From NCBI RefSeq assembly GCF_000179235.2, contig NZ_CP039373.1:1705860-1769859 (forward strand): a stretch of 64,000 nt of DNA. Reading direction: 5' to 3'. The first letter of the stretch is position 1. Each line of letters begins with the position of its first letter. The translations under genes and the position numbers were made by a program. The notes under the pieces were generated by a model. The model saw only the letters and a list, made by a program, of their open reading frames with translations, searched no databases and had not been told where the DNA came from. Shown piece by piece: positions 7,623 to 63,194 of the stretch. This stretch comes from Synechococcus sp. CB0101. Lineage in GTDB: Bacteria > Cyanobacteriota > Cyanobacteriia > PCC-6307 > Cyanobiaceae.

Positions 7623-7683
7623 GCCTGAACCCGCTTTCCAGCTCGTTATTGTTGCCCAGACCTGCCGAGCCTGCAGCCAGACG

Positions 7684-8673: not shown

Positions 8674-8685
8674 GGACCTCCGGCG

Positions 8686-10599: not shown

Positions 10600-10640
10600 G
10601 TCGGTGCTCGCTCGGACGGCGTTTGGTTGGCGCCTGATCG

Positions 10641-11141: not shown

Positions 11142-11207
11142 CCTCGCCGTTGCTGCACCGACCCTAGAGATCTCCCGTCCCGCCGCCAGCGCCGGTACCC
11201 TCGAGCG

Positions 11208-30065: not shown

Positions 30066-30072
30066 CGCGGCT

Positions 30073-32598: not shown

Positions 32599-35018
32599 CA
32601 GTTGGCCTCGTTGCTATCGGGGGCTGTCCATTGCCAATCGGTGATGGCGGGGGCATCCATGCCGTGTTCATGGGCATAGGCCCGATTGGCGAGGATGGCC
32701 TCCTTCATCTGCTCTTTCACATGAGCGGCGCGTGACCCTAACCCCGGAACACGGTCGATCACATCAATCACCAGATTGAAACGATCGATCTGGTTGTTCA
32801 TCGCCAGCTCGAGCGGGGTGTTGATGTTGCCCTTCTCCTTGTAGCCGCGCACGTGGAAGTTGGCATGGTTGGTGCGGCGGTAGGTGAGGCGGTGAATCAG
32901 CCACGGATAACCGTGGAAATTGAAGATCACCGGACGGTCCGTGGTGAACAAACTGTCGAAGTCGCGATCGCTCAGGCCATGGGGGTGTTCGCTTGGCTGG
33001 GTGAGCGCGAACAGCTTCACCACATTCAGCACCCGCACTTTGAGGCTGGGGATCTCGCGCCGCAGGATTTGCACCGCCGCCAGCGTTTCTTTGCTGGGGA
33101 TATCGCCGGCGCAGGCCATCACCACATCCGGCTCATCGGGTTCATGGCCGCTGTGGTCGTTGCTGGCCCAGCTCCACAGGCCGATGCCTTTGGCCACATG
33201 GGCACGGGCTTGATCCAGCGTGAGGTATTGCAGGTGCTTTTGCTTGTCGCTCACGATGATGTTGCAGACGTTGGTTTCCACCAGCGCCTGCTCAGCCACA
33301 GCCAGCAGCGAATTGGCATCGGCCGGGAGGTAAACCCGCACCACCTCACCGCTTTTGTTGCCCGCCAGATCAATGAAGCCAGGATCTTGATGGGTGAAGC
33401 CGTTGTGGTCTTGGCGCCAAACCGTGGAGGAGATCAGGCAGGTCCAGGGGCCGATCGGTGCGCGCCAGGGGGCGTGATGCAGGCAGCTCTCCAGCCATTT
33501 GGCGTGCTGGTTGAACATCGAGGCGATCACATGGGCGAAGGCCTCGTAGGTGTGGAACAGGCCGTAGCGGCCGGTGAGCAGATAGCCCTCCATCATTCCC
33601 ACCAGCGTGTGCTCGCTGAGCATCTCCACCACGCGGCCGCTGCGGGAGAGCTCGCTGCCATTGAGGTCTTCCGGCAGCAGATCTTCCATCCACACTTTTT
33701 TGCTGCGCTCGTAGATCGCCTGCAGCCGGTTGGAGGCGGTTTCATCCGGGCCAAACACCCGCAGCGAATCGGGATTCAGACCGATCGCATCGCGGAGGAG
33801 TTCGCCGAGCACCGCCGTGTTTTCGTGCTGCACGCTGCCCGGCTTGGGCACCGCAACGGCGTAGTGAGCGATGGGAGGCAGCTGCAGTTTGCGGCGCAGC
33901 AGCCCGCCATTGGCGTGGGGGTTGGAGCCCATCCGGCGGCTACCCGCCGGTGAAAGGGCCTGCAGCTCGGGCTTGAGTGTGCCCTGCTCATCGAACAGTT
34001 CCCAGGGCCGGTAGCTCTTCAGCCAGCTCTCCAGTTGCTGCAGCTGGGCCGTGTCGTGGCGCGGATCGGGCAGAGGCACCTGGTGGGCCCGCCAGAAGCC
34101 CTCCAGTTTTTTGTCGCCCAGGGCGGCAGGGCCGGTCCAGCCCTTGGGGGAACGCAGCACGAGCATTGGCCAAGCGGGCCGCTGGGCCTCGCCGCTGCGG
34201 CGCGCCTCCGCCTGAATGGCCTTGATGCGGCCCACGGCGTCGTCCATGGCAGCGGCCATGGCGGCGTGCATCGCCATCGGCTCACTGCCCTCCACGAACA
34301 GCGGCTCCCAGCCGTAGCCCCGCAGCAAACTCGCGAGTTCCTCCCGCGGGATCCGGGCCAGCAGGGTGGGGTTGGCGATCTTGTAGCCGTTCAGGTGCAG
34401 CACCGGCAGCACGGCGCCATCGCTGATCGGATTGAGGAATTTGTTGATGTGCCAGCTGGTGGCCAGCGGGCCGGTCTCCGCCTCCCCATCGCCCACGCAG
34501 GCCAGGGCAATCAGATCGGGGTTGTCGAACACCGCACCGCAGGCGTGCGAGAGCACGTAGCCCAGCTCGCCGCCCTCATGGATCGAGCCGGGGGTTTCCG
34601 GGGTGCAGTGGCTGCCGATGTGGCCCGGGAACGAGAACTGCTTAAAGAAGCGCTGGAGGCCAGCCGCGTCTTGCGACTTATCGGGATAGACCTCCGAGTA
34701 GGAGCCATCGAGATAGGTGGGGCCGAGCACCCCCGGTGCTCCGTGCCCCGGCCCCGACAGATAGATCATGTCGAGGTCACGCTCGCGGATCAGCCGGTTG
34801 GCGTGGGCCCAGATGAAGGCCTGGCCAGGGCTTGAGCCCCAGTGGCCCAGCAGGCGGTTTTTGATGTGCTCGGGCCGCAGCGGCTCGCTGAGCAGCGGGT
34901 TGTCCTGGAGGTAGATCATCCCCACGGCCAGGTAGTTGGCGGCGCGCCACCAGGCATCGATCCGCGCGAGCTGCTCGTTGGCGATCGCATCAGCCGCGTT
35001 GGCTGGGCTCAGGGTCAT
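32598..35018 (-). CDS. xfp: Xylulose-5-phosphate/fructose-6-phosphate phosphoketolase
   Basis: An 806-residue ThDP enzyme that splits xylulose-5-phosphate (and often fructose-6-phosphate) with phosphate to give acetyl phosphate. Landmarks are [42 protein letters not shown] in pieces, the ThDP site GDGEAETGP, and [11 protein letters not shown]. Length is standard. It heads the xfp-glgP-ackA operon. Whether xylulose- or fructose-phosphate is preferred cannot be read from sequence. Confidence 0.97.
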
Positions 35019-42299: not shown

Positions 42300-43358
42300 A
42301 TAGACCTTGGCTCACATATCCAGCCACTTTCGGCTGCGTTTTGAGGCTAAATGAGGTGTGCAGGACACCAAGTCCCTGTTCACACTGTCGCGAGTAATGT
42401 GTCGTCGGCCTGGTACAGATTCGACAGTGCCGCAAGCACGTTGATTTTTGCAGCGGCGTTCTGGCCAAGCTCGCAGCCGGGTCTTTTGAAAGCCGAACTG
42501 CTGCTTGATCACACGGAGGGCATGCTCAACCTTGGAGCGGATGTGAGCTTTGGCCGTCTCGATCAGATCTGCACCCTCCCATCCGGTGCGTTCAGGAAGA
42601 GCCCTGCGCTGCCGGGCCGCATCGCCACTCTGAAACCCGCTGTCTTGCCAGCCATTTCTGGTCTCTTGGCGATGCCCTGAGTAGCCAGCATCGCCGGTAC
42701 ACCACCTCCTCATCTCCATGCATGTAGCTCAGCTGCCGGGGTGAGGTCGTGCACGTTGGCGGCAGGTGACGACAACCGAATGGATCAGGCCTGGAGTCCT
42801 TGTCAACGCCGGCGTGGACCTTCATGCCGAAGTACCACTGGTTGCCCTTTTGGTCTGGTGCATCTCCGCGATCCCGCTTCCCATCTTTGTTCTTGGTGGA
42901 GCTGGGCGCTGCCGATCAAGGTGGCATCGACGATCGTGCCCTGACGCCATGGTTACGCCCGAGCGGCCAGGAGCGCTTTGACGGTGTCAAAAATCTGCTC
43001 ACCCAGCCCATGCTTCTCAAGCAGATGGCGGAACGTGATCGTGGTCTCGTCCGGATCCGATCGCTGACATCAGCTCGATGCCGGCAAAGCGGGCGCAGGT
43101 GGGCACCTCGATCAAGGCCTCTTCCATGGCCGGATCGCTGAGGGAGTACACTGCTGCAGCGATGAATGCGCAGCATCGTTGCCAGCGGATAGCGGAGCCT
43201 GCCGCCTTTCTTGCTCGCACTTGGGGTAGTGCGGCTCGGATCAGATCGAGTGAGTGCCTGCCAAGGCACCACAGCCTCCATCTCGGAGAGAATTTCTCGC
43301 GCTTGGTGCGCTTCTTGGCCGTGGTCAGCTCATAGTCCGTGAACCGAGCTGCTTGCCA
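42300..43358 (-). mobile_element. Decayed IS5-family insertion sequence
   Basis: About 1.05 kb separating the two halves of the FG-GAP gene. GC content rises sharply relative to the flanks. Imperfect inverted ends are suggested by GACCTTGGCTCAC (42303-42315, plus strand) and CTCGGTTCAC (minus strand, ending near 43339); no clear target duplication was found, so ends are good to about 15 nt only. It contains one transposase gene with many frame breaks. Confidence 0.82.
42312..43340 (-). pseudogene. IS5-family transposase, multiply frameshifted
   Basis: Transposase peptides appear in order but in different frames: ELTTAKKRTKREKF, MEAVVPWQALTR, LRYPLATMLRIH, SLSDPAMEEALIEVPT with RFAGIELM, MKVHAGVDKDS, LHGDEEVVY-type and GDAGYSG, and finally DLIETAKAHIRSKVEHALR with VIKQQFGFQKTRLR. 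These are DDE motif regions of the IS5 group. At least six frame changes by single-base indels are needed, so no active enzyme is encoded by this copy as written. Confidence 0.85.
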
Positions 43359-44762
43359 CCCATCAACCAGTCCTGTCTGCGATTACAGAGTTCATTTTCG
43401 CAGCAGACGGGCTGGTTTTCCAGATTTCCTAGATCTCTGGAGCGAGCATTGTTGATTAAAGGCAGGTCTTCATATGTTGTGAGCCTATTGTCTGTGGGGG
43501 AATAGGCCATGAATTGAATGCGGTTCTTTCCTTCGGTAATGACAAGGTTTTTCCCTACAGAAGGAAAGAACGAAACCAGGCAAAATCGGGATGACTGATT
43601 CTTGTCTGATTGTGAAATGAGAGGCTTTGTGCCTTCGCTTTTTCTTACGAGAGCCTTTATGCCCGAGTCTCGGTTGTATTGGCATAGCACGAGGTCAGGG
43701 AGTTTGTCGTCACTCAGTAGTCCGTAAGAAAGGGATTTATATCTTTCAATCTCAAATGATTGAGTCGAGCAGGTTTCTTGTGTGCACTTGCTGCCAAGTA
43801 TTTGATGATGCTGAAAGATGCCGGCTTCATTCTTTTTCCTGAAATTAGGAGCATGCATGCCGTCTTTTCTGCCTTGGTTCAAAAAGGCTAGAAATAGTTT
43901 GTTGTCTAACACGAATGGAACTACCTGGCGGCCACGTGCACCTGCTTGCTCAATACCTAGAGAGGTTGCCCAGTCAGTTGCTGAAATGCTCTGGTGTTTT
44001 TGGGAAATGGCTGTCTGATTAATGAGATGAAGCTGATTGTGCGTGCCTATGTTGGTTTTTTCTGCATTGCCTTGGCGACCACCAATGGTTTCAAGAATCT
44101 CATCAATCCCGTCACGATTGATGTCGATAAATATTGCAGAATGCTGATCACCTCTCCCTAGAGTTCGGAAGTCTTTCGAAGTTAGATTTTTGCCTATATC
44201 AAGAATTAGATGCGACGTTGGAAACCTACCATCGGTGTTCAGCTCTCGGTGATGATTGAGATAAAGATCCGGCCATTCATTGTTGTTTGCTGTCCCCCAA
44301 GCAATCCCCCAAGTCTGCCCTAGATAGTCCGTGAGGTCGCCTTGATTGTCGGGAAGCTTAATTGCATCGGTCATATCTTTAAAGCAAAGGCTGCCCCAGT
44401 CGAAGCATATATCTTGATTTGCCCTTAGATTTGCTACTTCAGTCCGTGACTTTCCATTAAAAAAATATCCGACACCAAGCGCGAATATTGTCAGTATAGA
44501 GGCAATGGTAATTGTCAAAGGCTTTGATGGCCTTGCACGCTGCTTGGTTTTATTGATTGGCATGGTTTGGTTTGCTTAAGACCTTTTGGGATTCAATCTG
44601 AGTTGTTCTGCATTCCGTGATGGTTACTTGCTTGCTGCTAGCAAGAGTCAGTAGCTGGGGAGTGTGCGGAAATCATTAGAATTTTCTGCAAGTAGCCAAG
44701 ATGGCTTTGAATTCGGAGCAGGTTTTTGTGAAGTCTAATCTTTCTTTTGGGGTTTGCTCTTC

Positions 44763-45854
44763 TTATGGTTTTGAGTGCTGTGGCCAAAACAGGCGTTTCC
44801 AACTTGGCTGAAACAGCTGATGGATTGGTTTCCAGACTGTTGATCGAAGAGCCGCCAACCGCTCAGTATTTATAGGACAAAAGTCTTTTACGCAGGTGAA
44901 TGTTTCGGGCAAGTCTGTACTTGGTAAACACTTGGCTTCGGTGGTATCAATATCTGGGAAAATGATGCCTCTGTTTCTTAGCCACTCAATGTCGCTGCTG
45001 CGTTGAATGATGCCGGCTTTGGCTGATTCTTTAAGTGTTGGCCGAGTTTGCCCGCCTACCATTGAGTCAGCTTTTCTTAGAATTGAGACGATCTTTGGAC
45101 GCCGGTGGTCATAAACATCATCCCTTAACACTGGAAATTTCTCGGTAAGCTCCTCTAGGATTGCTAGAGCTTCGTTCGAGATGCTGGAGTTGGCCTGTTC
45201 GCAACCTGCTCGGCTGAGTATGTTGCAATCAACGCCTATGGGAAGGTGTTTGTCGCAAAAGTCGTCTACAATATCCTGATTCTTCAGGAGAGTTCGGTCG
45301 AATATCTGCCATGAGTAGCTCTCAAATCCAAGTTGCTCCCAGCCGGATATGGCTGAGCTGATGTAATCATGCCTTGGTAGGTTGATGGGGCGAAAATTGC
45401 GCAGCTTCTGGTTTAGTTTGGACGCGAAGTAGGAGGTGGGGCTCTTAATGTACGCGATGGTTTGTATGTGATCGACGTGCTCATGCAGGGTGTTGCGAAA
45501 AATTGTCCTTTGTTGGTCTGATGCTCGCCTCAAGATGCTCCAAAAGCCTTCGGCGCTGATGATCACATGTTTGTGGCTTGTTGATTGCATTTCGTGAATC
45601 AATGACTCCCAGTATTTTCGGGAGATTGCCTTAAGGGAGTCGCCGCTTGAGTGAGCGCGCCGCCGGATTGATTCGTTGTCAGCTTGAAAAAGCCATGGGA
45701 TGGCTAAAGCGTGCTTGTATTCCGAGGGCTCGGTTCGTGTTGGGTAGAGAACTGAAGCCTCTTTTAGTAATGTTGCTGCGTTGCTCGATAGTACGGACTG
45801 CAGGGCTGTTGTGCCCGTCTTCGGGTGCCCAATATGCAGGAGAAGACGGGTCAT
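44763..45854 (-). CDS. Sulfotransferase-like P-loop protein
   Basis: 363 residues. The N-terminal strand-loop HIGHPKTGTTALQ (7-19) is a PAPS 5'-phosphosulfate-binding type loop, and AYIKSPTSYFASKLNQ matches the 3'-phosphate site pattern. No signal or membrane segment. Such enzymes transfer sulfate from PAPS to sugars or lipids in the cytosol, but the acceptor is unknown. Clearly AT-rich relative to neighbours. Lies 36 nt after the permease on the same strand and 199 nt before the split FG-GAP gene. Confidence 0.82.
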   Translation of the reverse strand: MTRLLLHIGHPKTGTTALQSVLSSNAATLLKEASVLYPTRTEPSEYKHALAIPWLFQADNESIRRRAHSSGDSLKAISRKYWESLIHEMQSTSHKHVIISAEGFWSILRRASDQQRTIFRNTLHEHVDHIQTIAYIKSPTSYFASKLNQKLRNFRPINLPRHDYISSAISGWEQLGFESYSWQIFDRTLLKNQDIVDDFCDKHLPIGVDCNILSRAGCEQANSSISNEALAILEELTEKFPVLRDDVYDHRRPKIVSILRKADSMVGGQTRPTLKESAKAGIIQRSSDIEWLRNRGIIFPDIDTTEAKCLPSTDLPETFTCVKDFCPINTERLAALRSTVWKPIHQLFQPSWKRLFWPQHSKP

Positions 45855-50695: not shown

Positions 50696-51409
50696 ATGTC
50701 TGTTGCCCTTGCTGCCCAACTGCGTGAAGGGACCAAAAAGTCCCACACCATGGCCGAGAACACCGGCTTTGTGAGCTGCTTCCTCAAGGGTGTGGTGGAT
50801 AAGGCCAGCTATCGCAAGCTCGTGGCCGACCTCTACTTCGTGTACGGCGCGATGGAAGAGGAAATCGCCCGACTGAAGGACAACCCGGTGGTGTCGCCGA
50901 TCGCCTTCCCCCAGCTGAACCGGCGTGAAGCGCTGGAGCAGGACCTCGCCTACTACTTCGGCGCTGACTGGAAAAACCAGATTCAGCCCTCCCCGTCGGC
51001 GGCCGTCTACGTGGCCCGCATCCATCAGGTGGCCCAGGAGTCGCCCGAGCTGCTGGTGGGTCACCACTACACCCGCTACCTGGGTGATCTCTCTGGCGGT
51101 CAGATCCTCAAGAACATTGCCCAGAAGGCGATGAACCTGAGCGACAACGACGGCCTGCACTTCTACGAATTCGCCGCCATCGACGACGAGAAGGCCTTCA
51201 AGGGCACCTATCGCTCCGCCATGGACACCCTGCCGATCGATCAGGCCACGGCCGATCGGATCGTGGAGGAGGCCAACGAGGCCTTCCACCTGAACATGAA
51301 CATGTTCAAGGAGCTCGAGGGCAATCTGGTGGCCGCCATCGGCAAGGTGCTGTTTGGCTTCCTCACCCGCCGCCAGCGCTCCGGTAGCACCGAGGCTGTG
51401 GCTGCTTGA
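50696..51409 (+). CDS. ho1: Heme oxygenase (biliverdin-producing)
   Basis: 237 residues. It opens heme to biliverdin with reduced ferredoxin, the first step to phycobilins. The proximal heme His lies in LREGTKKSHTMAENTGF, and the distal-helix signature is YTRYLGDLSGGQILKN. The C-terminus ends in a short basic/Ala tail. Its stop overlaps the TTG start proposed for the glycosyltransferase that follows, an unexpected coupling. Confidence 0.98.
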   Translation: MSVALAAQLREGTKKSHTMAENTGFVSCFLKGVVDKASYRKLVADLYFVYGAMEEEIARLKDNPVVSPIAFPQLNRREALEQDLAYYFGADWKNQIQPSPSAAVYVARIHQVAQESPELLVGHHYTRYLGDLSGGQILKNIAQKAMNLSDNDGLHFYEFAAIDDEKAFKGTYRSAMDTLPIDQATADRIVEEANEAFHLNMNMFKELEGNLVAAIGKVLFGFLTRRQRSGSTEAVAA

Positions 51410-52494
51410 GCCAGAGTTGGCCTTCAGGCCGGCTTCCCTTGCGCTCGATCCGCATTCTTGTTCCCGGCACCACGGGCCGGTTTCGTTGTGGTGGTCTGCT
51501 GGTGGAGCTGCAGACCGCCAGGCTCTTGGAGCAGATCGCCCGTGTGGAGGTGGTCACCTACCGGCAGAGGGAGCCTGATCATCCGTTTTTGGCCGACCTG
51601 CTGCGGCAAGAGCCGGCTGACTGCTCCAGCGACTCTCCCTTGTGGTTGGTGAGTTGGGGGTTTGACGTGCCTTGGCTGCTGCGCCGGCTCAAGGGCCGAG
51701 CCGCCGCTTATCACGCCCACAGCAGTGGGTATGGATTTGATTTGCCGGCGGGGGTGCCGGTGGTCGCCGTGAGCCGCAACACCCTCGGCTACTGGGGCGA
51801 TCGCGCGCCCCGCAATCCGCTCACGCTGGTGCCGAATGCCCTCGAGCCGATGTGGCTCGAACGCGGCGCTCGCACGGACTCAGCCGTGAGGCCAATCGAT
51901 GTGCTGGTGCAGCGGCGCAAAACCAGTGCCTATGTGCTGGATCAGTTGGTGCCTGCGCTGCGTGAACGCGGACTCAAGGTGGAGGTGCAGAGCGGCTGGG
52001 TGGAGGATCTGGTGGATCTCTTCAACAGCGCGACGGTTTACCTCTACGACTCGGCTCCCTATTGGCGCAGCCGCGGTGTGACGGAGGGATTTGGGCTGCC
52101 GCCAATCGAGGCCCTGGCTTGCGGGTGCGTGGTGTTCAGCAGCGTGAACCACGCTTTGGCCGACAACCTCGATCCCGGTCGGATGGGTCATCAGCTCGGC
52201 GCCGGCACGCTCCAGGCCGATCTCGAGCGCATCACAGCGGCTGTGCAGGCGCCTGATGCCTGGCGTGCAGAGCCATCTGCGCTGGCTCGGCTCCTCGAGG
52301 GCTGCTCGGAGCAGGCGCAGTTGATGCGTTGGCAGGAAGCGCTCCAGCAGATCAACCAACACTGGGATCGATTGGCGGCTGGATCCTCAGCGCTCCCTGC
52401 CCCGAAGCAGGGCCTGCTGCCCTGGGGCCGGATCCGTCAGGGCTTGGCCAATCAGATCTCTGGTCTCGCCTGGGCTTTGAAGAGTCGTCGCTGA
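51406..52494 (+). CDS. GT-B glycosyltransferase (GT4-like)
   Basis: About 362 residues. The N-terminal Rossmann half starts SIRILVPGTTGRFRCGGLLVELQ, with AYHAHSSGYGF. The C-terminal donor site has LVPNALEPMW and the EGFGLPPIEALACG motif (E-x7-E), typical of family 4 transferases. No membrane segment is visible. The start is TTG 51406 overlapping ho1, or TTG 51439 (giving MRSIRILVPG), which I find equally plausible. It begins a plus-strand run with the ABC exporter genes, 24 nt downstream. Confidence 0.85.
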   Translation: MSQSWPSGRLPLRSIRILVPGTTGRFRCGGLLVELQTARLLEQIARVEVVTYRQREPDHPFLADLLRQEPADCSSDSPLWLVSWGFDVPWLLRRLKGRAAAYHAHSSGYGFDLPAGVPVVAVSRNTLGYWGDRAPRNPLTLVPNALEPMWLERGARTDSAVRPIDVLVQRRKTSAYVLDQLVPALRERGLKVEVQSGWVEDLVDLFNSATVYLYDSAPYWRSRGVTEGFGLPPIEALACGCVVFSSVNHALADNLDPGRMGHQLGAGTLQADLERITAAVQAPDAWRAEPSALARLLEGCSEQAQLMRWQEALQQINQHWDRLAAGSSALPAPKQGLLPWGRIRQGLANQISGLAWALKSRR

Positions 52495-52518: not shown

Positions 52519-54336
52519 ATGCAAAGCCGGACTCTTGACCAGCTGCGGCAGCTGTTCCGCTTGTTGCCGCAGCAGCGTCTGAGGGCTTTGCAGGCCTTGG
52601 TGCCCGTATCGGTGCTGCCTGGTGCCTTGGATCTGGCCTGTGTCTGGTTGATTGCCCAGCTCACAGGATCGCTGGTGGGGCAGACCCGGCTTCAGCCGTT
52701 GGCGGGTTCCGAGGCAGTGGATCAGAGCCTTTGGCTGATCGGTGGATTCGTGTTGGCCTGCTGGTTGGCGTCGGCGGCGAAGCTCGCCTTGAGGCTGCGG
52801 CAGCAACGCCTGGCCGCAAGGATTTGGCGTGATCTCTCAGATCAGATCTATGCGCGTCTGCTGAGGCAGCCGCTGCTGTTCCATCTGGAGTCGGGCTCGG
52901 CTGAGCTCAGCGCTCGGGTGCTGGCCAATCTCAATCACTTGGCGGTGAATGTGATCACACCGATCCTGCAGTTGATCAGCGGGGTGGCGTCCATCACCTT
53001 GCTGTCCATCGGGATTCTGTGGGTGGGGCGCTGGCTCTCGGTTGCCCTGGTGTTGGGGTTGGTGCTGGCCTACGTGCTTGTTTCGCTGAGCGTGACCCCG
53101 CGGCTGCGGGCAGCCAGCTCCGTGCGGGTAGCGATGGAGAGCCGCTCCTCCCAGGTGTTGCTCGAATCCATCCATGCCGTTCGCGATATCCAGCTCACCA
53201 GCAGCGAGCCTCACTTCCAATCGATTTTTGGGCGCTCCACGGAGCTCTCCAGGCAGAGCATCTGGTTGGCTGAGTGGTTGCCTGAGTTGCCGCGGGGCTT
53301 GATTGAGCCGCTGGGCATCACGGTGATCTTTGCGATCGGGGCCCTTCCGGCGCTGCTCAGTGGTAACCCCCAGCGGGTGCAGCAGATCCTGCCCTTCCTG
53401 GCGATGATTTCAGTGGCGGCCCTGCGGTTGACGCCACCGCTGCAAGACGCGTTTCGCGCCCTGACCCGGATCCGCGGCTCGCTGCCCTTGCTGGGGGACG
53501 TTGTGGAGCTGCTGTCGTTGCCCGAGCAGCGCCCCACCCTGCTCACCCCTGGCGTGCCTTCTCCTGCAGGAGTGGCTCCACGTCATTTCGTGCGCTTGCG
53601 CGATGTGTGGTTCCGCTACCCCCAGTCCCACGACTGGGTGCTCAAGGGGGTGGACCTCACCATTCCGGTTGGTGCGCGCGTGGCCCTGGTCGGCACCACG
53701 GGCAGTGGGAAGAGCACAACTGCCCATGTATTGCTCGGATTGCTCAGCCCACAGAAGGGTGCGCTTGAGCTCGATGGCATTGCCGTGGACGATCTGGAAG
53801 TGCCGGCCTGGCAGGCCAACTGCGCTCACGTTCCCCAGTCGATCCATTTGCTGCACGGCACGATCCTGGAGAACGTGGCCTTCGGCGAGGCCATGGAGCA
53901 GGTGGATGAGCACCGCGTCTGGGAGGCTCTCGAGGCGGCGCGTCTCGACGACTTTGTGGCGCAGTTGCCCTTTGGACTTCAGAGCCCTGTTGGCGACGAT
54001 GGTCTGCGTTTGTCGGGTGGGCAACGGCAGCGCCTTGCCCTGGCTCGGGCCTTCTATCGCCGCTCCAGCTTCCTGGTGCTAGACGAGGCCACCAGTGCCC
54101 TCGACAACCGCACCGAATCGGAAGTGATCGACGCGTTGGAGCTGGTGGGCCGTCGCTGCACCACGTTGGTGGTCGCTCATCGGCTGAGCACGGTGAGTCG
54201 CTGCGATCGCATTGTGGAGTTGGTGGATGGGGGCATCAGGGCCTACAGCACCGTTGATGAGCTCCAGAGCTCATCCGCCACGTTTGATGAGCTGCTGCGT
54301 CTCGACGATCACGCGATCGGTTTGGCAGGTCACTGA
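52519..54336 (+). CDS. ABC exporter, MsbA/PglK type (first of tandem pair)
   Basis: 605 residues: a six-helix membrane domain (about 20-310) fused to a nucleotide-binding domain. Walker A GTTGSGKST is at 392-400, the Q-loop in AHVPQSIHLL, signature LSGGQRQRLALARAF, Walker B FLVLDEATSALD and H-loop VVAHRLST. The closest well-known layout is PglK, which flips lipid-linked oligosaccharides, or MsbA for lipid A; the substrate is inferred from the surrounding glycosyl- and sulfotransferases. The neighbouring ABC gene is a clear paralog, so the functional unit may be a heterodimer. Confidence 0.92.
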   Translation: MQSRTLDQLRQLFRLLPQQRLRALQALVPVSVLPGALDLACVWLIAQLTGSLVGQTRLQPLAGSEAVDQSLWLIGGFVLACWLASAAKLALRLRQQRLAARIWRDLSDQIYARLLRQPLLFHLESGSAELSARVLANLNHLAVNVITPILQLISGVASITLLSIGILWVGRWLSVALVLGLVLAYVLVSLSVTPRLRAASSVRVAMESRSSQVLLESIHAVRDIQLTSSEPHFQSIFGRSTELSRQSIWLAEWLPELPRGLIEPLGITVIFAIGALPALLSGNPQRVQQILPFLAMISVAALRLTPPLQDAFRALTRIRGSLPLLGDVVELLSLPEQRPTLLTPGVPSPAGVAPRHFVRLRDVWFRYPQSHDWVLKGVDLTIPVGARVALVGTTGSGKSTTAHVLLGLLSPQKGALELDGIAVDDLEVPAWQANCAHVPQSIHLLHGTILENVAFGEAMEQVDEHRVWEALEAARLDDFVAQLPFGLQSPVGDDGLRLSGGQRQRLALARAFYRRSSFLVLDEATSALDNRTESEVIDALELVGRRCTTLVVAHRLSTVSRCDRIVELVDGGIRAYSTVDELQSSSATFDELLRLDDHAIGLAGH

Positions 54337-54420: not shown

Positions 54421-56280
54421 ATGCCTGGCTGGATGGCGCAGCTTCAAAGCAAGACGCTGCAGCAGGTGGTCCAGTTGGCCGGGCAATTGCCGCCTCATTT
54501 GCGGCGCCGCATTCTTGTTCTGTTACCGATCTCGGTGGTTCCAGGCATCCTCGATGCCGCATCGATTGCGGTGGTGGCCTGGATGATGTCCACCTTGTTG
54601 GGCACTCGTCTGCGCCAAGGCATTCCGTCGTTGCCGTTTCTCCAGGGTGATCGGTTGGATCAGGCCCTGTGGCTGATCGCCCTGTTCATCCTGTTTTCCT
54701 GGTTGCGATCACTATCCAAACTGCTTGTACTGGGCTTGCAGGAGCGGATGACGGGCCAGCTTTGGCTGTGGCTCACGGAAACGATCTATGCCCGCATTTT
54801 GTCGCAGCCCTACGAATTTCATATTGGCAAGAATGACAAGAAGTTGGCGACACAACTGCTGTCCAACGTGACCCATGTGGTCAAGGGTGTCTTTTCGCCA
54901 TTGCTGCAGTTGCAGTCGTCCTTGATCACGGTTTTCTTCTTATTTGCTGGCCTTATCTATGTTGGTCGCTGGTATGCGATGGCCCTGTTTTTCTGTCTGG
55001 TCATTGCGTACGGCGGTTTTTCTGTGTTGCTGACGCCTTATCTCAGGCGTGCCTCATCTCAGAAGCTGCGCTTGGCATCAGCCATGAAGCAGGGATTTTT
55101 CGAGTCAATGAACGTGATTCGTGAGATCCATCTCTCATCCGCAGAGCCTTTTTTCAAGCGTGCCTTCGGCGTGGATTCTCGAAAGGCAAAGCGTGTCGAA
55201 GCGCTCAATAACTTTCTTCCTAATCTACCCAAGCAAATCATCGAACCTGTCGGGATCACTCTGATCTTCTCGTTCGGCGCCTTGCCGGCTCTCTTGGGAA
55301 AGGGGAGCGTTGGTGACCTCAAGCAGATCATCCCTTTCCTCGCCACCCTCGCGCTGGCATCGCAGCGGATCACCCCAGCCATGAACGACCTGTTCAAGGC
55401 CCTCACCCGCTTGCGTGCATCCTTGCCGAATCTCACCAGCGTCCTCGGTTTTCTGGCTCTGCCTGAGCCAACAGGGATGTCGCTTGGATTGGCGTCAGCG
55501 GGGATCAGTCCGGAGGGCATCAGGCCGCGACGATCCATTCGGTTGCACGATGTGAGCTACTGCTACCCAGGTCGAGATGAACCGGTGATCTCAGGGCTCA
55601 ACCTCACGATTCCAGTCGGTTCTCGTGTGGCTCTGGTGGGTTCCACCGGCAGTGGCAAAAGCACCACAGCCCATCTGTTGTTGGGCTTGCTCACCCCGCA
55701 ACAAGGCGCCCTCGAGATTGATGGTCTTGTGGTGGAGCCCGACGATCTGCGGGCTTGGCAGTCGTGTTGCGCCTACGTGCCGCAGATCGTGTCGTTTTTG
55801 CGGGGCAGTGTTCTGGAGAACATTGCTTTTGCAGAGGATCCGATGCAAGTGGATCAGGATCGCGTCTGGGAAGCTCTCGAAGCGGCTCAGCTGCAAGATG
55901 TGGTGGCGAGCCTCCCCTATGGCCTGTACACACCCGTAGGTCGTGATGGTTTGCACCTCTCGGGCGGCCAGCGTCAACGCCTGGCTCTGGCACGCGCTTT
56001 TTACCGCAAAGCCGAGTTCTTGCTGTTGGATGAAGCCACTAGTGCTCTCGATAACCGCACGGAATCTGAAGTGATTGCGGCGCTTGAAATTGTGGCTCGT
56101 CGCTGCACCACCGTGGTGATTGCCCATCGCTTATCAACGATTGAGCGTTGCGATCGGATCTTTGAATTTGAAGCTGGGCGCCTCAAGGCATCGGGCACGT
56201 TTGACCAATTAAGGGAACGTTCCGATAGTTTCAAGGATCTGACCCAACTCGAGGGTCGTTTCGCGATCCAGCAGGAATGA
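54421..56280 (+). CDS. ABC exporter, MsbA/PglK type (second of tandem pair)
   Basis: 619 residues with the same architecture as the preceding gene: membrane domain (about 35-325) then Walker A GSTGSGKST (407-415), YVPQIVSFLRGSVLENIAF, LSGGQRQRLALARAF, Walker B LLLDEATSALD and VIAHRLST. Shared stretches such as EP-GIT-IF-GALPALL in the membrane part show recent duplication. All catalytic motifs are intact in both copies, so neither looks like a silent half. An 84-nt spacer precedes it, and the stop overlaps the next gene (ATGA). Confidence 0.92.
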   Translation: MPGWMAQLQSKTLQQVVQLAGQLPPHLRRRILVLLPISVVPGILDAASIAVVAWMMSTLLGTRLRQGIPSLPFLQGDRLDQALWLIALFILFSWLRSLSKLLVLGLQERMTGQLWLWLTETIYARILSQPYEFHIGKNDKKLATQLLSNVTHVVKGVFSPLLQLQSSLITVFFLFAGLIYVGRWYAMALFFCLVIAYGGFSVLLTPYLRRASSQKLRLASAMKQGFFESMNVIREIHLSSAEPFFKRAFGVDSRKAKRVEALNNFLPNLPKQIIEPVGITLIFSFGALPALLGKGSVGDLKQIIPFLATLALASQRITPAMNDLFKALTRLRASLPNLTSVLGFLALPEPTGMSLGLASAGISPEGIRPRRSIRLHDVSYCYPGRDEPVISGLNLTIPVGSRVALVGSTGSGKSTTAHLLLGLLTPQQGALEIDGLVVEPDDLRAWQSCCAYVPQIVSFLRGSVLENIAFAEDPMQVDQDRVWEALEAAQLQDVVASLPYGLYTPVGRDGLHLSGGQRQRLALARAFYRKAEFLLLDEATSALDNRTESEVIAALEIVARRCTTVVIAHRLSTIERCDRIFEFEAGRLKASGTFDQLRERSDSFKDLTQLEGRFAIQQE

Positions 56281-57494
56281 GCCAGGGTCCCTTACGCCCC
56301 AGCAGGTCTCGTGATGTCGTCTTGCTGGCAACGGCTGACTGGGATCATCCTTTCTGGACGAATAAGCAGCATGTAGCCATGGCCATGTCCCAGCTGGGGC
56401 ACCGTGTGCTGTATGTGGAATCCGTGGGTCTGAGGCCACCACGCTTGGAGGGCCAGGATCTCCTAAGAATCTGGCGACGGTTGCGACGGGGTCTTAGGCC
56501 TCCTCGTCGGGTGGCTGAGAACCTCTGGGTTTGGTCGCCCCTGTTGATCCCCGCAGCTCATGCGGGCTGGAAACGAGCTTGCAACCGCTGGCTATTTGCA
56601 TTCTGGCTTGATGTTTGGCGCCGCTGCCTACATCTTCAGGCAGACTTGCTTTGGACGTATAACCCGCTGTCGGGGTTGCTGATCACATTGCCGCAGTGCC
56701 ACTATCAACAACTGGTTTATCACTGTGTTGATGATCTTGTGGCTCAGCCCTGTATGCCAGCTGCGTTGATCGCCCGAGAGGAAGAGCGCTTGTGCCGTTG
56801 CAGTGATCAGGTGTTTGTGACCTCGCCTGAGTTGTTGCGCACGCGTTCAGTTTTTAATTCCAGAATTCGATACGACTCGAATGTTGCAGATGTTGATTTC
56901 TTTGCTCGCGCCCGTGATTCAAGCATGCCCATAGCGCCAGAACTGCTTGCCTTGCCTGAGGGGCCACGCCTTGGCTTCATCGGTGCCGTGAGTGCTTATA
57001 AGCTCGACTTCAACCTGTTGGCTCAGTTGGCAGAAGCCCGTCCTGATTGTCAGATCATCTTGATCGGAAGGCTTGGAGAAGGTGATCCGTCAACCGATCT
57101 GCAGCGGGTGGAGAGCTATCCCAATGTCCACTGTTTGGGCCCAAGGGCTTATGCAGAACTGCCATTTTATTTGAGGGGTTTTGATCTGGCTTTGTTGCCA
57201 TGCCCAATTAATGACTACACCCGATCGATGTTTCCGATGAAGTTTTTTGAGTACATGGCGGCTGGGGTTCCCATTGTTTCAACCGCGCTTCCGGCTCTGC
57301 AGGACTATGCCGAACTTGCCTGTCTGTGTCGTACAGATCACGATTTTATTGATGCGATAAATTGCTTGCTGAGCTCTGATGACCGGCGACATGAAGCTGT
57401 TGTTCCTCTGCAACAGATGCCTACGCACTGCAGTTATCGAGGGCGCACGCAGCTCATGATGCAGGTGTTGGATCGTGATCAGACTGGCATATAA
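56277..57494 (+). CDS. GT-B glycosyltransferase
   Basis: 405 residues. The N-terminus DVVLLATADWDHPFWTNKQH with HVAMAMSQLGHRVLYVES is the acceptor-side Rossmann fold. The donor side has GPRLGFIGAVSAYKLDF, IILIGRL and MFPMKFFEYMAAGVPIVST (glutamate-containing nucleotide-sugar loop). It resembles the UDP-galactopyranose/teichuronic-type transferases found in polysaccharide clusters. The ATG overlaps the second ABC stop, tying sugar transfer and export together. Confidence 0.88.
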   Translation: MSQGPLRPSRSRDVVLLATADWDHPFWTNKQHVAMAMSQLGHRVLYVESVGLRPPRLEGQDLLRIWRRLRRGLRPPRRVAENLWVWSPLLIPAAHAGWKRACNRWLFAFWLDVWRRCLHLQADLLWTYNPLSGLLITLPQCHYQQLVYHCVDDLVAQPCMPAALIAREEERLCRCSDQVFVTSPELLRTRSVFNSRIRYDSNVADVDFFARARDSSMPIAPELLALPEGPRLGFIGAVSAYKLDFNLLAQLAEARPDCQIILIGRLGEGDPSTDLQRVESYPNVHCLGPRAYAELPFYLRGFDLALLPCPINDYTRSMFPMKFFEYMAAGVPIVSTALPALQDYAELACLCRTDHDFIDAINCLLSSDDRRHEAVVPLQQMPTHCSYRGRTQLMMQVLDRDQTGI

Positions 57495-57501: not shown

Positions 57502-58650
57502 ATGATGAAGCGCACCGCCCTTGTTCATATCGGTCTTGAAAAAACCGGGTCGACGGCGATCCAGCGGTGGCTTGCTTCCAATCGTGAGCTCATTCAGAGT
57601 TCTGGCATCATCATGCCAACCTCGATTGGCTATCCCAATCACACCAAGTTGGTTTCTGCCTGCTTGGATGAAGGTGTAGTTGATAACATCAAGAGCCACC
57701 ATCTATTCGCCTCTGGTCTTTCGGAACAACGGTTTAGACAGCGTGTCTTCGCTGATCTTGACGCGGATATACAACGGGCTCCATCGTATTGGCATACACT
57801 TCTGATTACATCGGAGCTGATTTCCAGTCGCCTATCAACCGATTCCGAGGTCGATAGGCTTGTCGAACTGCTTTATCAATATGTTGATTCGATTCGATTT
57901 GTGATTTTCTTGCGGCGGCAGGATCAATTGGCGCTCAGTCGCTTTAGTTCAATTTTGAGGTCGGGCCATTCTGAGTTCTTCAATGTATTCGTCAATTACT
58001 CGCCGTTTAACTTTTTGAGCGTTCCAGACCAAAGAGCATTGAGTGATGATCTGTTCTTCTATGACTTCGAGTCCATTCTTGCCCGGTTTGAGCGTGTGCC
58101 AGGCGCGGACCTGAGTGTTTTCCTCTATGGTGCAGATCGTCCAGTTGATGTTTTGCTTCGACTGCTGGGCCTTGAAGTGCAGCTGCCAGTTTCTTCGGCA
58201 GGCCGGCATAATTCAGCATTGAGTGCTGAGGCTCAGTACATACTTGCGTCGCTGAATCAGATTTACCCTGTTCAGTTTTCCTCAGGCATGCGTAATGATG
58301 CCTATCGTCGGTTGCAGCGCCGCATCGAGTCAGAGATCACAGGTCGTACTCGTACGGTTGCAAAGAAAGAGGCGGAGGCATTTCAGGCGCGGTATCAACA
58401 GATCAATACGCGTGTTGTTCAACGCTATCAGCTTGTTGCTGGGCAAGTCTTGTTTGGCGATGCATCCGACTACCCGGATGCTGTTGACTATTCGGAATTG
58501 TCGTCTCTTCTGAGTGATCGCCTCAAGGTCTATCGGGATATCGCTAATACTACGGTGCCCGCGGTGGAAACGATCTCTCTGCGCACCTATAATCAATTAC
58601 GTCGAATCAAAGCCTCCTTGAAGCGGGCTGTCAGTGTGTTTGTCCGCTGA
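57502..58650 (+). CDS. Sulfotransferase-like P-loop protein
   Basis: 382 residues. The N-terminal loop HIGLEKTGSTAIQRW (9-23) parallels the HIG-PKTG loop of the protein at 44763-45854 and the one at 63191, and FLRRQDQLALSRF resembles the 3'-phosphate-binding stretch. A basic, helical C-terminal extension (about 290-382) is unusual for small sulfotransferases. ATG at 57502 or 57505 (MM start). It follows the glycosyltransferase by 7 nt. The acceptor is unknown. Confidence 0.8.
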   Translation: MMKRTALVHIGLEKTGSTAIQRWLASNRELIQSSGIIMPTSIGYPNHTKLVSACLDEGVVDNIKSHHLFASGLSEQRFRQRVFADLDADIQRAPSYWHTLLITSELISSRLSTDSEVDRLVELLYQYVDSIRFVIFLRRQDQLALSRFSSILRSGHSEFFNVFVNYSPFNFLSVPDQRALSDDLFFYDFESILARFERVPGADLSVFLYGADRPVDVLLRLLGLEVQLPVSSAGRHNSALSAEAQYILASLNQIYPVQFSSGMRNDAYRRLQRRIESEITGRTRTVAKKEAEAFQARYQQINTRVVQRYQLVAGQVLFGDASDYPDAVDYSELSSLLSDRLKVYRDIANTTVPAVETISLRTYNQLRRIKASLKRAVSVFVR

Positions 58651-58652
58651 TC

Positions 58653-59780
58653 ATGTGGCTTCCTTACCGTCTAACCCAGCTTTTACCCACACGGGCCCGT
58701 GTGCGCAAGGTTTGGTACAGCTCACCTCTGTTCCGTTCCGAGCGCGAATTCAAGCGCCGTTGGACCATCGCTAGAGGTGATCACTCACAGCAGGTTGAGC
58801 AGCATGCTCATCCTGCTGTGACTCTTTGTCGGATCATCGGCAATGATTTGTTCCCCAGGCAGCAGACAGGCCAGGCTGTCGCCAATCTCAAAACCATTCT
58901 GCAAAGGGAATCTAATCCTCATGAATGGAGGAAGCTCTTTATCCTCAATCGATTTATTGATCTCGATCTTCAATATGAAGCCGTTGAGCTCATTCGCGAG
59001 GCCGGTCATTCTTGTGAAGTGATTGGGTTTGAGCCTGATGTTTATCGATCTCTTCGCTATCGCCCGGAGATCTTTGGCGGATTAGACTATTTTCAGTCTT
59101 CCGAATTTAAGGTCAAAGATCCATTTTGCCAGGATCGCGAACGAATTTGGGCTTGTGGCGAGAAGATTCGTTATCTGATGAATATTAATGGTGCGCGTAA
59201 TCATGCATTAGCGCTGGGCAGAATCTGTTCGGATTGGACGCTTGTTCTGGATGGGAGTTGCTTCCTGACTCATACCGTTTTTGAAGCACTGCAGTCAGAC
59301 CTCTCAGCTTCTCCCAACGTTCCTTATCTGATCGTGCCCATGCGTCGTCAGGCGGAGGCGTGTGATCTGGAAGATCTCGATGTCTCGCCCACGCATCGGG
59401 AGGAGCCGCAGATCGGTTTTCGCTCAGATGCGACTGAGCAATTTGATGAGGCTTATCCCTATGGGGTTCGCGACAAGACTAGTCTTCTTAACCGGCTCGG
59501 CGTGCCTGGCCCTTGGTGCGCATGGGCACCGCTGGACTGGCATCCCGAGGCGTTGACCCGTTCGACGGACCGGCATTTGTACAAATTCGGCTCTGCTTCT
59601 GTGGTTCGCCTCACCTCAGGTGTCGCGAATGGTTCCTTGGAGCAGGTTGGTGCCCAAATGAAACGCTATCGCTCTCGTATTACAGCGATTTTTGCCACAC
59701 TGAAAGCTGTTGACCAGCAGTGTGAGGCTGTCGATGCCGGCCTCCTTGCCGGTATTACAGGTGCTACAAGCACTCTTTAA
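58653..59780 (+). CDS. Uncharacterised RIIGND-motif protein, possible GT-A glycosyltransferase
   Basis: 375 residues with no signal or membrane segment. A short basic N-terminus precedes CRIIGNDLFPRQQTGQAVANL (about 59-79), FILNRFIDLDL (about 96-106), NGARNHALALGRICSD (179-194) and WTLVLDGSCFLT (195-206). The strand-Asp-Gly pattern followed by a hydrophobic residue, and the ARN-x-A block, resemble the DXD region of GT-A enzymes, with DGS in the DXD position. I recall similar RIIGND proteins without known function. It starts 2 nt after the previous gene and so is tightly linked to the sulfotransferases. Confidence 0.6.
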   Translation: MWLPYRLTQLLPTRARVRKVWYSSPLFRSEREFKRRWTIARGDHSQQVEQHAHPAVTLCRIIGNDLFPRQQTGQAVANLKTILQRESNPHEWRKLFILNRFIDLDLQYEAVELIREAGHSCEVIGFEPDVYRSLRYRPEIFGGLDYFQSSEFKVKDPFCQDRERIWACGEKIRYLMNINGARNHALALGRICSDWTLVLDGSCFLTHTVFEALQSDLSASPNVPYLIVPMRRQAEACDLEDLDVSPTHREEPQIGFRSDATEQFDEAYPYGVRDKTSLLNRLGVPGPWCAWAPLDWHPEALTRSTDRHLYKFGSASVVRLTSGVANGSLEQVGAQMKRYRSRITAIFATLKAVDQQCEAVDAGLLAGITGATSTL

Positions 59781-59795
59781 AGACGACATTTTTCG

Positions 59796-60740
59796 ATGGC
59801 GATGGTCCCCGATTCTCTGCGCAGCGTGATCAAGCGGATGGTCCGCGGCAAGCCGGCTCCCCCACCGCTTCCTTTGCCACAGCGCCAACTCGTGCTCGGG
59901 CTTGGGGCGATGAAGTCTGGCACGACCTGGCTCTCAGACTATTTGGGTGGTCACCCCCAATTCTTTCATTCTCCGATTAAGGAGATGAATGCTTTTGCTT
60001 CTCTCTATCCCGATAACCCTGTTTATCCCAGCTATATCTATAAACCCGGAAACTCTTACCGCATCTGGCGGATGGAGAGAATTGTCCTTTCCTTTGGAGT
60101 GAAGCCCCCTCGGCTCGATCAAACTGATGCGGAGCAAGAGCGTTTCGACCGCCTGCGTGCCCTCGCACAGTTGGGTCGTATTGCAGCTGTTGAAGACTAT
60201 CTAAGTTTCTTTGCCGAACGGATTGGTTCCGAGCTGCATTTCGGTGAAATCTCGCCCTCGTATGCGCACCTGCCACCCGAGGCTTACACGCAGATGGCAT
60301 CGCTCACGCAAGATGTGCGATTCATTTTCCTCATGCGTGATCCGACCGACCGTGCGGCTTCCCATCTGCGCCACGCGCGCCGACGTGTCGATAAGCATGT
60401 TGATCTTGATGATCTTCTGGAGCGTGTTGATGCATCCAATCCGATTTTCATTCGTTCCGACTATCGATACACGCTGAATACATTGCGGGATTTGGGCCTA
60501 GCCGAGCGCTGCCGCTTTCTGATCTACGAAGATTTGTTCAATCAAGATTGCATGGATAGCCTCTGTGATTGGCTTGGGCTTCCCCGGTATGAGGCCGTCT
60601 TCGATAAACGACTCAATCCTGGGGTTGGTGATGCCTTGAGCTCTGAGCAGCTCTCCAGGCTGAGAGATCGTTTGGCACCGATCTACGATGGTCTCCACTC
60701 TGATCCTGCTGTCGCTTCGGCCACGTCGTGGCGCTGGTAA
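59796..60740 (+). CDS. PAPS-dependent sulfotransferase
   Basis: 314 residues. Classical sulfotransferase fold: phosphosulfate loop LGAMKSGTTWLSDYL (36-50) and 3'-phosphate site FLMRDPTDRAASHLRH (178-193). An early basic, Pro-rich leader (about 8-30) is not clearly a membrane anchor. It transfers sulfate from PAPS to a hydroxyl or amine, likely on a glycan given the neighbours. ATG 59796, with an alternative at 59802. Lies 15 nt after the RIIGND gene. Confidence 0.93.
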   Translation: MAMVPDSLRSVIKRMVRGKPAPPPLPLPQRQLVLGLGAMKSGTTWLSDYLGGHPQFFHSPIKEMNAFASLYPDNPVYPSYIYKPGNSYRIWRMERIVLSFGVKPPRLDQTDAEQERFDRLRALAQLGRIAAVEDYLSFFAERIGSELHFGEISPSYAHLPPEAYTQMASLTQDVRFIFLMRDPTDRAASHLRHARRRVDKHVDLDDLLERVDASNPIFIRSDYRYTLNTLRDLGLAERCRFLIYEDLFNQDCMDSLCDWLGLPRYEAVFDKRLNPGVGDALSSEQLSRLRDRLAPIYDGLHSDPAVASATSWRW

Positions 60741-60785
60741 CCCGATGAGGGGAGTAGGGTCCGAATTGGGTGGAGAAGGTCTTTG

Positions 60786-63194
60786 ATGGCGCAGGGGTTC
60801 CTGGCTGGACTGAACGACGCTCAACGCCGTGCCGTTGATCACCACGTTGGCCCGCTGCTCGTGGTTGCGGGCGCCGGCAGTGGTAAAACGCGTGCTCTCA
60901 CCCATCGCATTGCTCACCTCATTGGGCAGCATGGTGTGGATCCGGCTGAATTGTTGGCAGTCACCTTCACCAATAAGGCTGCCCGAGAGATGAAAGAGCG
61001 GCTGGAGTTACTCCTGGCCCAAAAGTTAGCTCAGAGCCAGTTTGGTCAGCCCTGGAGCACATTGCCTGCGGTTGAGCAGCGTCAGCTGCGCTCGAGGATT
61101 TATCGAGACGTCATCAAGGACCTTTGGATTGGCACGTTTCATGCATTGTTTGCTCGTCTTCTTCGTTTTGATATCGATAAATTCCGTGATCCAGAAGGGC
61201 TGACTTGGACGCGTCAATTCTCGATCTACGATGAGGGTGATACGCAGAGTCTGGTTAAGGAGATTGTGACCCAGGAGCTTGGATTAGACCCTAAGCGATT
61301 TGAACCAAAAAAGGTTCGTTGGGCGATCAGTAATGCAAAAAATCAAGGTTGGATCCCTGAACAGCTTGAAGCTGACGCGGGTGGACAGCGCGGCAAACTT
61401 ATGGCTGAAACCTATCGCCGTTATCGCCGGGCTCTCGCTGCCAACAATGCCCTTGACTTCGACGACCTATTGCTGCTGCCTGTTCAGTTGCTGCGTCAGA
61501 ATGATGAGGTGCGCCATTACTGGCACCGGCGCTTCAAGCATGTGTTGGTGGATGAGTACCAAGATACCAACCGCACTCAATATGAGCTAATCAAGCTCCT
61601 TGTTGCCGATGGTCGCGATCCAGCGGATTTTGGCGAGTGGCAGGGACGGTCTGTGTTTGTTGTTGGCGATGCTGATCAAAGTATTTATAGCTTCCGAGCG
61701 GCTGATTTCACCATCCTGATGGGTTTTCAGGAGGACTTTGGTGACGGTGCGCCGGATGATGCTACGCGCACCATGGTGAAACTTGAAGAAAACTATCGTT
61801 CCACTGCCACGATTCTTGAAGCTGCCAATGCGCTCATCTCGAATAATACCGAGAGGATTGATAAGGTTTTGCGGCCCACCCGTGGCGATGGTGAGCTGAT
61901 CACCCTCACCCGTTGTGACGACGAGATTGCCGAGGCTGAGGCTGTTGTGCATCGCATGCGCATGTTGGAGGCTGCTAATCCAGATCTCGGTTGGCGCGAC
62001 ATGGCTGTGCTGTATCGCACCAATGCCCAAAGCCGTGCGATGGAGGAGTCGCTGGTGCGCTGGGGCATCCCTTATGTGGTGGTGGGCGGACTGCGCTTTT
62101 ATGACCGGCGTGAAATCAAGGACATCCTTGGCTATTTGAAGTTGCTGGTGAATCCGGCCGATACGGTGAGCCTGTTGCGAGTTCTCAATACGCCCAAGCG
62201 TGGGATTGGCAAGACCACGATTGAACGTCTGAGTGATGCTTCCAATCAGCTTGGGATCCCCCTCTGGGATGTGGTGAGTGATCCAGAGGCTGTGCGCTCC
62301 TTGGGGGGGCGTTCGGCGAAGGGCCTACTGCAATTCAGTGAGCTGATTCGTTCGTTGCAAGCCCGTGCAGAAACGGCGCCGCCTTCGGAGTTGGTGCAAG
62401 TGGTGATGGAGCAGAGCGGTTATGTGGCTGAGTTGATTGCAGCTGGTACGGACGAGGCTGAAGATCGACGCCGCAATCTCAATGAATTGGTGAATGCTGC
62501 TCTTCAGTATCAGGAGGAAAACGAGGAGGGGTCGCTTGATGATTTCCTCGCCTCTGCCGCCCTTGCCAGTGATGCCGATAGCAAAGACACGGAGCAGGAC
62601 CGCGTCACGTTGATGACCTTGCATGCCAGTAAGGGGCTTGAGTTCCCGGTGGTGTTTCTGGTGGGATTGGAGCAGGGCCTGTTTCCCAGCTACCGCTCGT
62701 TGGATGATCCAGCGGCGATGGAAGAAGAGCGGCGCCTTTGTTATGTCGGTATTACCCGCGCCAAGGAACGCTTGTTTTTGTCTCACGCCAGTGAACGGCG
62801 GCTGTGGGGCGGGATGCGTGAGCCGGCTGTGCCATCTGTTTTCCTCTCGGAACTTCCAGATGAACTCGTGCAGGGGGATCTTCCCCGCAGTGGCGGGGCA
62901 GCTCTGAGGCGTGAGAACCGCTTGGAGCGTCTCACCCGCGTGGATCGGGCTGAGAGTGAGCAGGTTCGATCTGTCGGAGATGCGGCGCAGCCAGCCAATG
63001 CCGTTCGGCGTCGTGGATCCGGTGGCTCCAGCAAGGTTTGGGCCGTGGGTGATCGATTGATGCATAGCTCCTTCGGTGAGGGGCATGTGACCCACCTGTT
63101 CGGTAGTGGTGAAAAGATCTCAATCGCGGTGAAATTTGAGGGCATGGGACCCAAAATCCTGGATCCGCGCTTGGCACCGATTCAGCCCCTATGA
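60786..63194 (+). CDS. pcrA: UvrD/PcrA-type superfamily 1 DNA helicase
   Basis: About 802 residues. Walker A AGAGSGKT is at 28-35. Other motifs are VDEYQDTNRTQYELI (motif II), GDADQSIYSFRAAD, EENYRS, LYRTNAQSRAMEESL, LMTLHASKGLEFPVVF and GITRAKERL. It unwinds DNA in repair and clears RecA or RNA polymerase. The C-terminal Tudor-like tail VWAVGDRLMHSSFGEGHVTHLF is the PcrA/UvrD form. ATG 60786 is used; a TTG just before it is also in frame. Its stop overlaps the start of a sulfotransferase-like gene, so a housekeeping helicase is embedded in the glycan cluster. Confidence 0.97.
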   Translation: MAQGFLAGLNDAQRRAVDHHVGPLLVVAGAGSGKTRALTHRIAHLIGQHGVDPAELLAVTFTNKAAREMKERLELLLAQKLAQSQFGQPWSTLPAVEQRQLRSRIYRDVIKDLWIGTFHALFARLLRFDIDKFRDPEGLTWTRQFSIYDEGDTQSLVKEIVTQELGLDPKRFEPKKVRWAISNAKNQGWIPEQLEADAGGQRGKLMAETYRRYRRALAANNALDFDDLLLLPVQLLRQNDEVRHYWHRRFKHVLVDEYQDTNRTQYELIKLLVADGRDPADFGEWQGRSVFVVGDADQSIYSFRAADFTILMGFQEDFGDGAPDDATRTMVKLEENYRSTATILEAANALISNNTERIDKVLRPTRGDGELITLTRCDDEIAEAEAVVHRMRMLEAANPDLGWRDMAVLYRTNAQSRAMEESLVRWGIPYVVVGGLRFYDRREIKDILGYLKLLVNPADTVSLLRVLNTPKRGIGKTTIERLSDASNQLGIPLWDVVSDPEAVRSLGGRSAKGLLQFSELIRSLQARAETAPPSELVQVVMEQSGYVAELIAAGTDEAEDRRRNLNELVNAALQYQEENEEGSLDDFLASAALASDADSKDTEQDRVTLMTLHASKGLEFPVVFLVGLEQGLFPSYRSLDDPAAMEEERRLCYVGITRAKERLFLSHASERRLWGGMREPAVPSVFLSELPDELVQGDLPRSGGAALRRENRLERLTRVDRAESEQVRSVGDAAQPANAVRRRGSGGSSKVWAVGDRLMHSSFGEGHVTHLFGSGEKISIAVKFEGMGPKILDPRLAPIQPL

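Follow-up and report, generated by a model that had tools for sequence, protein, structure and literature searches.

The gene at positions 58653–59780 (+) of the window, the whole stretch of 64,000 nucleotides from Synechococcus sp. CB0101 that was analysed, raises the question of what a protein encoded between two sulfotransferase genes may contribute to the modification of a surface glycan. The reading frame starts with ATG and specifies 375 residues, and the product is here referred to as Q. It carries in this order, all on the + strand, the motifs RIIGND (residues 60–65; 58830–58847), NGARN (179–183; 59187–59201) within the longer NGARNHALALG (179–189), WTLVLDGS (195–202), overlapping DGSC (200–203; 59250–59261), and EEP (250–252; 59400–59408), which includes E251, followed by Lys275 (59475–59477). 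An initial annotation had pointed out the 375-residue frame, the ordered motifs RIIGND, NGARNHALALG and WTLVLDGS, and a spacing of 2 nt after one sulfotransferase gene and 15 nt before another. The motifs are all present as described, and the coordinates agree, as the upstream gene ends at 58650 and the downstream gene starts at 59796.

The surrounding genes, all on the + strand, comprise in this order a heme oxygenase gene (50696–51409; PF01126), a GT4-like glycosyltransferase gene as the first gene of the cassette (51406–52494; PF00534 at E 8.6e-6 and PF13692 at E 1.4e-5, just below cut-off), two genes for ABC exporter half-transporters (52519–54336 and 54421–56280; both PF00005 and PF00664), a gene for a GT4-type glycosyltransferase (56277–57494; PF13692 at E 1.4e-12), ST1 (57502–58650), Q, ST2 (59796–60740) and a helicase gene (60783–63194), whose product we take from its sequence to be of the UvrD/PcrA/Rep type. 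The half-transporter next to the GT4 gene is MsbA/PglK/HepA-like, with the NCBIfam models MsbA, PglK and HepA matching below their cut-offs. The heme oxygenase and helicase genes, both in conserved synteny, form the left and right borders of the cassette, and the former lies outside its function.

ST2 (314 aa) was recognized as a sulfotransferase by the Pfam models PF13469 (E 8.9e-11) and PF00685 (E 2.4e-8) and by the PDB sulfotransferase 3rnl (E 6e-8). No direct match to Pfam or NCBIfam was obtained for ST1 (382 aa), which is named a putative PAPS-dependent sulfotransferase on two grounds, a P-loop-like beginning (HIGLEKTGSTAIQ) and homology to the protein encoded at 44766–45854 (E 1e-10). 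The latter protein gives a PF13469 match that stays under the curated cut-off, and is found at 2e-27 by a profile of eight ST1-like proteins. The earlier placement of Q between two sulfotransferases therefore holds in full for ST2, and for ST1 in the sense that it is related to such an enzyme. The gene at 44763–45854 (−) encodes a further ST1-like sulfotransferase of 363 aa and adjoins a 412-aa ORF (43325–44563) without Pfam match.

Sulfotransferase, glycosyltransferase and export genes co-occur at this locus (ST1/ST2, two GT4 genes and two ABC half-transporter genes), and the cassette apparently makes and exports a sulfated surface sugar. A direct role of Q in the same modification, as proposed in the initial annotation, would fit the gene order and the neighbourhood of exporter and GT4 genes. 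According to an earlier study, cyanobacterial sulfotransferase genes are mostly located in putative extracellular polysaccharide clusters of the Wzx/Wzy and ABC types (PMC8205485), a pattern which the Q cassette fits. The xss/synechan cluster of Synechocystis 6803 likewise combines glycosyltransferases with two sulfotransferases, but uses Wzx/Wzy, whereas the Q cassette has ABC half-transporters and fewer glycosyltransferases (PMC8205485).

The Q gene is real. Three genomes of the same genus encode orthologs with overall identities of 78, 67 and 61% that also sit between ST1 and ST2, and the dN/dS ratio against the nearest relative (G150) was 0.117 for Q, 0.123 for ST1 and 0.066 for ST2; for wider pairs, synonymous sites were mostly saturated. 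Q is under purifying selection of about the strength that acts on ST1.

The site between heme oxygenase and helicase varies considerably in gene content. Of the 25 genomes of the genus, 18 gave a match to the helicase (E <= 1e-200), and the region upstream of it was read in 16 of these 18, namely the window and 15 further loci, with the partial helicase matches in G287 and G218 left out. The ST1-Q-ST2 arrangement was present at four of the 16 loci. In G064, the gene at this site encodes a Q protein of 663 aa, and after it come two ST1-like genes and a pair weakly similar to ST2. The locus in G258 is cut by the contig edge within the last part of a gene of this 663-aa type, with two ST1-like genes coming next. 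Exporter and GT4 genes occurred together with other genes at four loci, just heme oxygenase (ho1), a GT4-like gene, one ABC gene and the helicase were present at five (L081–L085), and none of these genes was found beside the helicase at the remaining one. Q and its sulfotransferase neighbours thus behave as exchangeable cargo beside an exporter core, in the manner of other variable surface-glycan loci. As the site has just the GT4-like gene and one ABC gene at five loci, it represents a hotspot for gain and loss of glycan genes.

Q had been called uncharacterised, and this was borne out by the searches. It has no family match in Pfam, NCBIfam, PHROGs or PDB sequences, so that its family is named by none of the profile libraries searched. 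None of the Pfam glycosyltransferase models matched at E <= 1, likewise none of those in NCBIfam, and the best NCBIfam score for Q (0.14) is at chance level. The top PDB match, phage YopN, was rejected as a relative as its E value of 0.12 is that of a chance match, and the search of PDB chains with the Q profile gave no match at E <= 10. No paper describing the Q family was found in the literature searched, the coverage of which was partial. Altogether 12 copies of the Q domain were found, every one cyanobacterial. With profile A2 at E <= 1e-8, the domain was detected in eight of 400 genomes of the bacterial family (nine copies), in five of the 25 genomes of the genus and in three of six genomes of another order, while profile A1 gave four strong and six weak matches in a sample of 386 genomes of the phylum. 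One candidate carrier, G226, gave a weak single-sequence match and was absent with the profile at E 1e-8. Neither tblastn searches with Q and with the Q domain of L031 against 50,697 phage and 72,556 plasmid records nor two viral-contig scans for Q yielded a relative. Beyond the cyanobacterial phylum the sampling consisted of one scan of genome contigs with Q as single-sequence query, which returned only the near-identical contig L001 (RFUY01000130.1). This contig is 99% identical to the Q-ST2-helicase segment of the window and is titled as a Gammaproteobacterium MAG; it is probably mistitled or mis-binned. Q probably represents a new family within a known kind, and not a new kind of system.

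In GT2 enzymes, the first Asp of the DXD motif faces the nucleotide and the last Asp binds the metal, and in inverting members the Asp of the xED motif is the catalytic base. In profile comparison the segment NGARN...WTLVLDGSC of Q aligns with ARN...DXD of GT2, with NGARN falling on the ARN motif and DGSC on DXD. The initial annotation had noted DGS where DXD is expected, and S202 indeed occupies the last DXD position. Among the 12 Q domains this position is S (4), N (4), G (1), A (1), C (1) or D (1), the last case being one protein (L019) with an intact DGD, whereas the first Asp of the motif and the Cys directly following DGx are present in all 12. Lys275 falls on the Asp that serves as xED catalytic base, a placement that depends on the alignment with longer GT2 sets; K is found here in nine of the 12 domains, and E, D and E in L017, L018 and L019, respectively. 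All nine rows with Lys275 also have E251, and none of the other three does. As L017–L019 form one clade (100% support), this covariation represents a single event and not independent support. The changed base position, as well as the domain fusions described below, had been missing from the initial annotation.

Judged from its sequence and its neighbours, Q may be a divergent but active cytoplasmic GT-A glycosyltransferase that works independently of metal in a sulfated-glycan cassette, a reading to which we assign a probability of roughly 0.5. Its family within GT-A, as yet without a name, would derive from GT2-like enzymes, and Q would transfer a single sugar to a glycan that is growing or linked to a lipid. 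In the presumed order of steps, this glycan would be built by the two GT4 enzymes, sulfated by ST1 and ST2, and flipped or exported by the paired ABC half-transporters. Q keeps D200, the counterpart of the first DXD Asp, and the metal-binding last Asp (S202) as well as the base Asp (Lys275) would be replaced; these replacements suggest that it most likely works without metal. The donor diphosphate would then be held by basic side chains in the manner of GT14 and bacterial GT6, and the role of base would fall to another acid, with E251 as candidate. GT14 and bacterial GT6 are metal-independent GT-A families that have lost DXD, bacterial GT6 having NXN, and basic side chains meet the diphosphate in these metal-free enzymes (PMC7185993, PMC3961637). 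Q resembles them in having no metal-binding DXD, but differs in keeping the first Asp and shows no sequence match to them, either in Pfam or in the profile search of the PDB.

The main rival explanation, which we consider rather unlikely, is that Q is derived from GT-A enzymes but has lost catalysis and instead binds the glycan acceptor, or acts as a scaffold or chaperone for ST1, ST2 or the GT4 enzymes. The replacement of both the last DXD Asp and the aligned catalytic base could mean exactly this, and the location of the gene between two sulfotransferase genes would fit. The GT-A pseudo-enzyme COSMC, which lost both DXD and xED, illustrates that such losses can end catalysis (PMC7185993). 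However, in addition to R60 and G63 of the RIIGND motif, the residues K94, R100, N179, N183, W195, D200 and C203 are invariant in all 12 aligned Q domains across two families, and the latter seven are active-site-like. The changes are also non-random, as S, N or G accompanies Lys275 and Glu251 in nine of the 12 copies, and the Pfam-scanned neighbours of Q in L046 and L031 (two genes each) include no sulfotransferases. An active, metal-independent glycosyltransferase is judged most likely because the active-site-like residues are invariant and the replacements follow a specific pattern.

Both readings presuppose a GT-A protein. The weak matches of profile A1 in the 386 genomes lie outside the Q family at E values of 2.7e-5 to 9.6e-4 per genome, of which the best corresponds to about 0.01 overall across the sample, and all six fall on the ARN...DXD segment of proteins reading as GT2. 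The window's own genome encodes a protein of this GT2 type (L060; PF00535, 71 bits). HMM-HMM comparison of the 12 Q domains with GT2s that have C-terminal repeats and that we presume to be SunT-like gave 94% (P 1.3e-7, score 57.6), a value inflated because this template set, five of the six weak A1 matches plus L060, was chosen as found by Q's own profile. Against 20 GT2s of the same genome and one other, the comparison gave 62% (P 7.7e-5, score 38.9). For these two sets, the reversed Q profile scored 27.1 and 15.9, and the maximum of 100 column shuffles was 22.9 and 17.4. The values were 38% against nine GT2s, 80% against all sets combined and 42% with a 10-row Q alignment; longer re-aligned GT2 sets gave 8% (16 of the 20 plus L046; P 0.004) and 31% (12 sequences; P 5e-4). 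Six unrelated local families (ST2, ST1, both GT4s, ABC and helicase) remained at 0.1–0.2%.

Alternatively, Q might not be a GT-A protein but have an unrelated fold, in which a short ARN...DGS motif resembling GT2 arose by convergence; we regard this alternative as quite improbable. It draws on the limited span of the alignments, which cover about 40–113 columns: the N-terminal part of Q alone had no significant match to GT2 profiles, and neither had the C-terminal part (score 14.3, E 0.18, with shuffles reaching up to 12.7). In addition, the single-sequence AlphaFold2 model (mean pLDDT 37.8, pTM 0.26) is too poor for reading a fold and leaves the GT-A fold unconfirmed. Such convergence is at odds with the column shuffles and reversed profiles, which stayed well below the real scores, and with the downstream FDE...RL segment, which is colinear with the FDE...xED...RL helix of GT2 in two GT2 sets. 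Profile comparison, if not a structure, supports the likeness to a GT-A active site seen in the initial annotation, and Q is likely a GT-A protein. In the alignment with SunT-like GT2 (PF00535), GT2 reads ARN...GDWVLVLDADE where Q reads NGARN...SDWTLVLDGSC; unlike these enzymes, Q has no Pfam match, its last DXD Asp and xED Asp are replaced, and its N-terminal RIIGND region is without significant match.

Outside the four genomes with the ST1-Q-ST2 arrangement, Q occurs as a domain of larger proteins. L017, L018 and L019 consist of Q and an Alginate_lyase domain (PF05426; E 1.9e-24, 1.4e-23 and 8.6e-24), and L046 combines GT2 (E 7e-37), Q and Alginate_lyase (E 3e-74) in one 1065-aa frame (8540–11734, −). 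The lyase domain of L046 has an NNH stretch, presumably the catalytic one of PL5, which is absent from L017–L019. The L046 fusion is possibly a protein that both makes and trims or epimerises a polysaccharide. In L031 the N-terminal stretch is GT2-like by eye, without Pfam match, and L015 and L016 extend further at the C terminus, with no significant lyase match there; the extensions of L015/L078 and L016 are remote lyase relatives at best (P 0.009 and 0.003) and are not claimed as such. The window's Q has no PF05426 domain, and a separate alginate lyase as its partner was discarded, as PF05426 matched in none of the 25 genomes of the genus. Tandem GT-A domains are known from proteins of the chondroitin-polymerase type. 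L046 is similar in that its single polypeptide has a GT2 domain and, after it, the GT-A-like Q domain, but it adds an alginate-lyase domain, and the Q of the window is a single domain. That Q has a GT-A-type fold with other chemistry, such as transfer of nucleotidyl or phospho-sugar groups or a direct contribution to sulfation, might be suggested by the two changed catalytic positions, the Lys at the base position and the invariant Cys after DGx, but is quite improbable, as no Pfam-scanned cassette gene indicates nucleotide-sugar activation and the fusion to GT2 and a lyase-like domain indicates work on polysaccharides.

Should Q prove to be an active glycosyltransferase, the GT-A enzymes would gain a metal-independent branch, and Q would offer a direct handle on the synthesis of sulfated surface glycans in picocyanobacteria, which to our knowledge have been little studied outside synechan. 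More tentatively, Q may found a GT-A family in which metal ligand (Asp to Ser/Asn) and base (Asp to Lys, with the new Glu251) are both exchanged, and which would act metal-free in picocyanobacterial sulfated-glycan assembly and, when joined with GT2 and a lyase/epimerase-like domain, in a one-chain polysaccharide machine. The GT2-Q-alginate lyase fusion is one protein in which the function of Q could be probed. The fusion gene in L046 adjoins a gene for a right-handed beta-helix protein (PF13229/PF07602). Directly upstream of the gene for Q and lyase in L018 lies a gene (7628–9922, +) whose 764-aa product contains numerous near-identical coiled-coil repeats, and genes with weak coiled-coil-type Pfam matches also adjoin Q in L017 and L019. 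Elsewhere in the window, genes for phosphoketolase, carbohydrate phosphorylase and acetate kinase occur in a row (29031–35018, −), which would form a route from glycogen to acetate.
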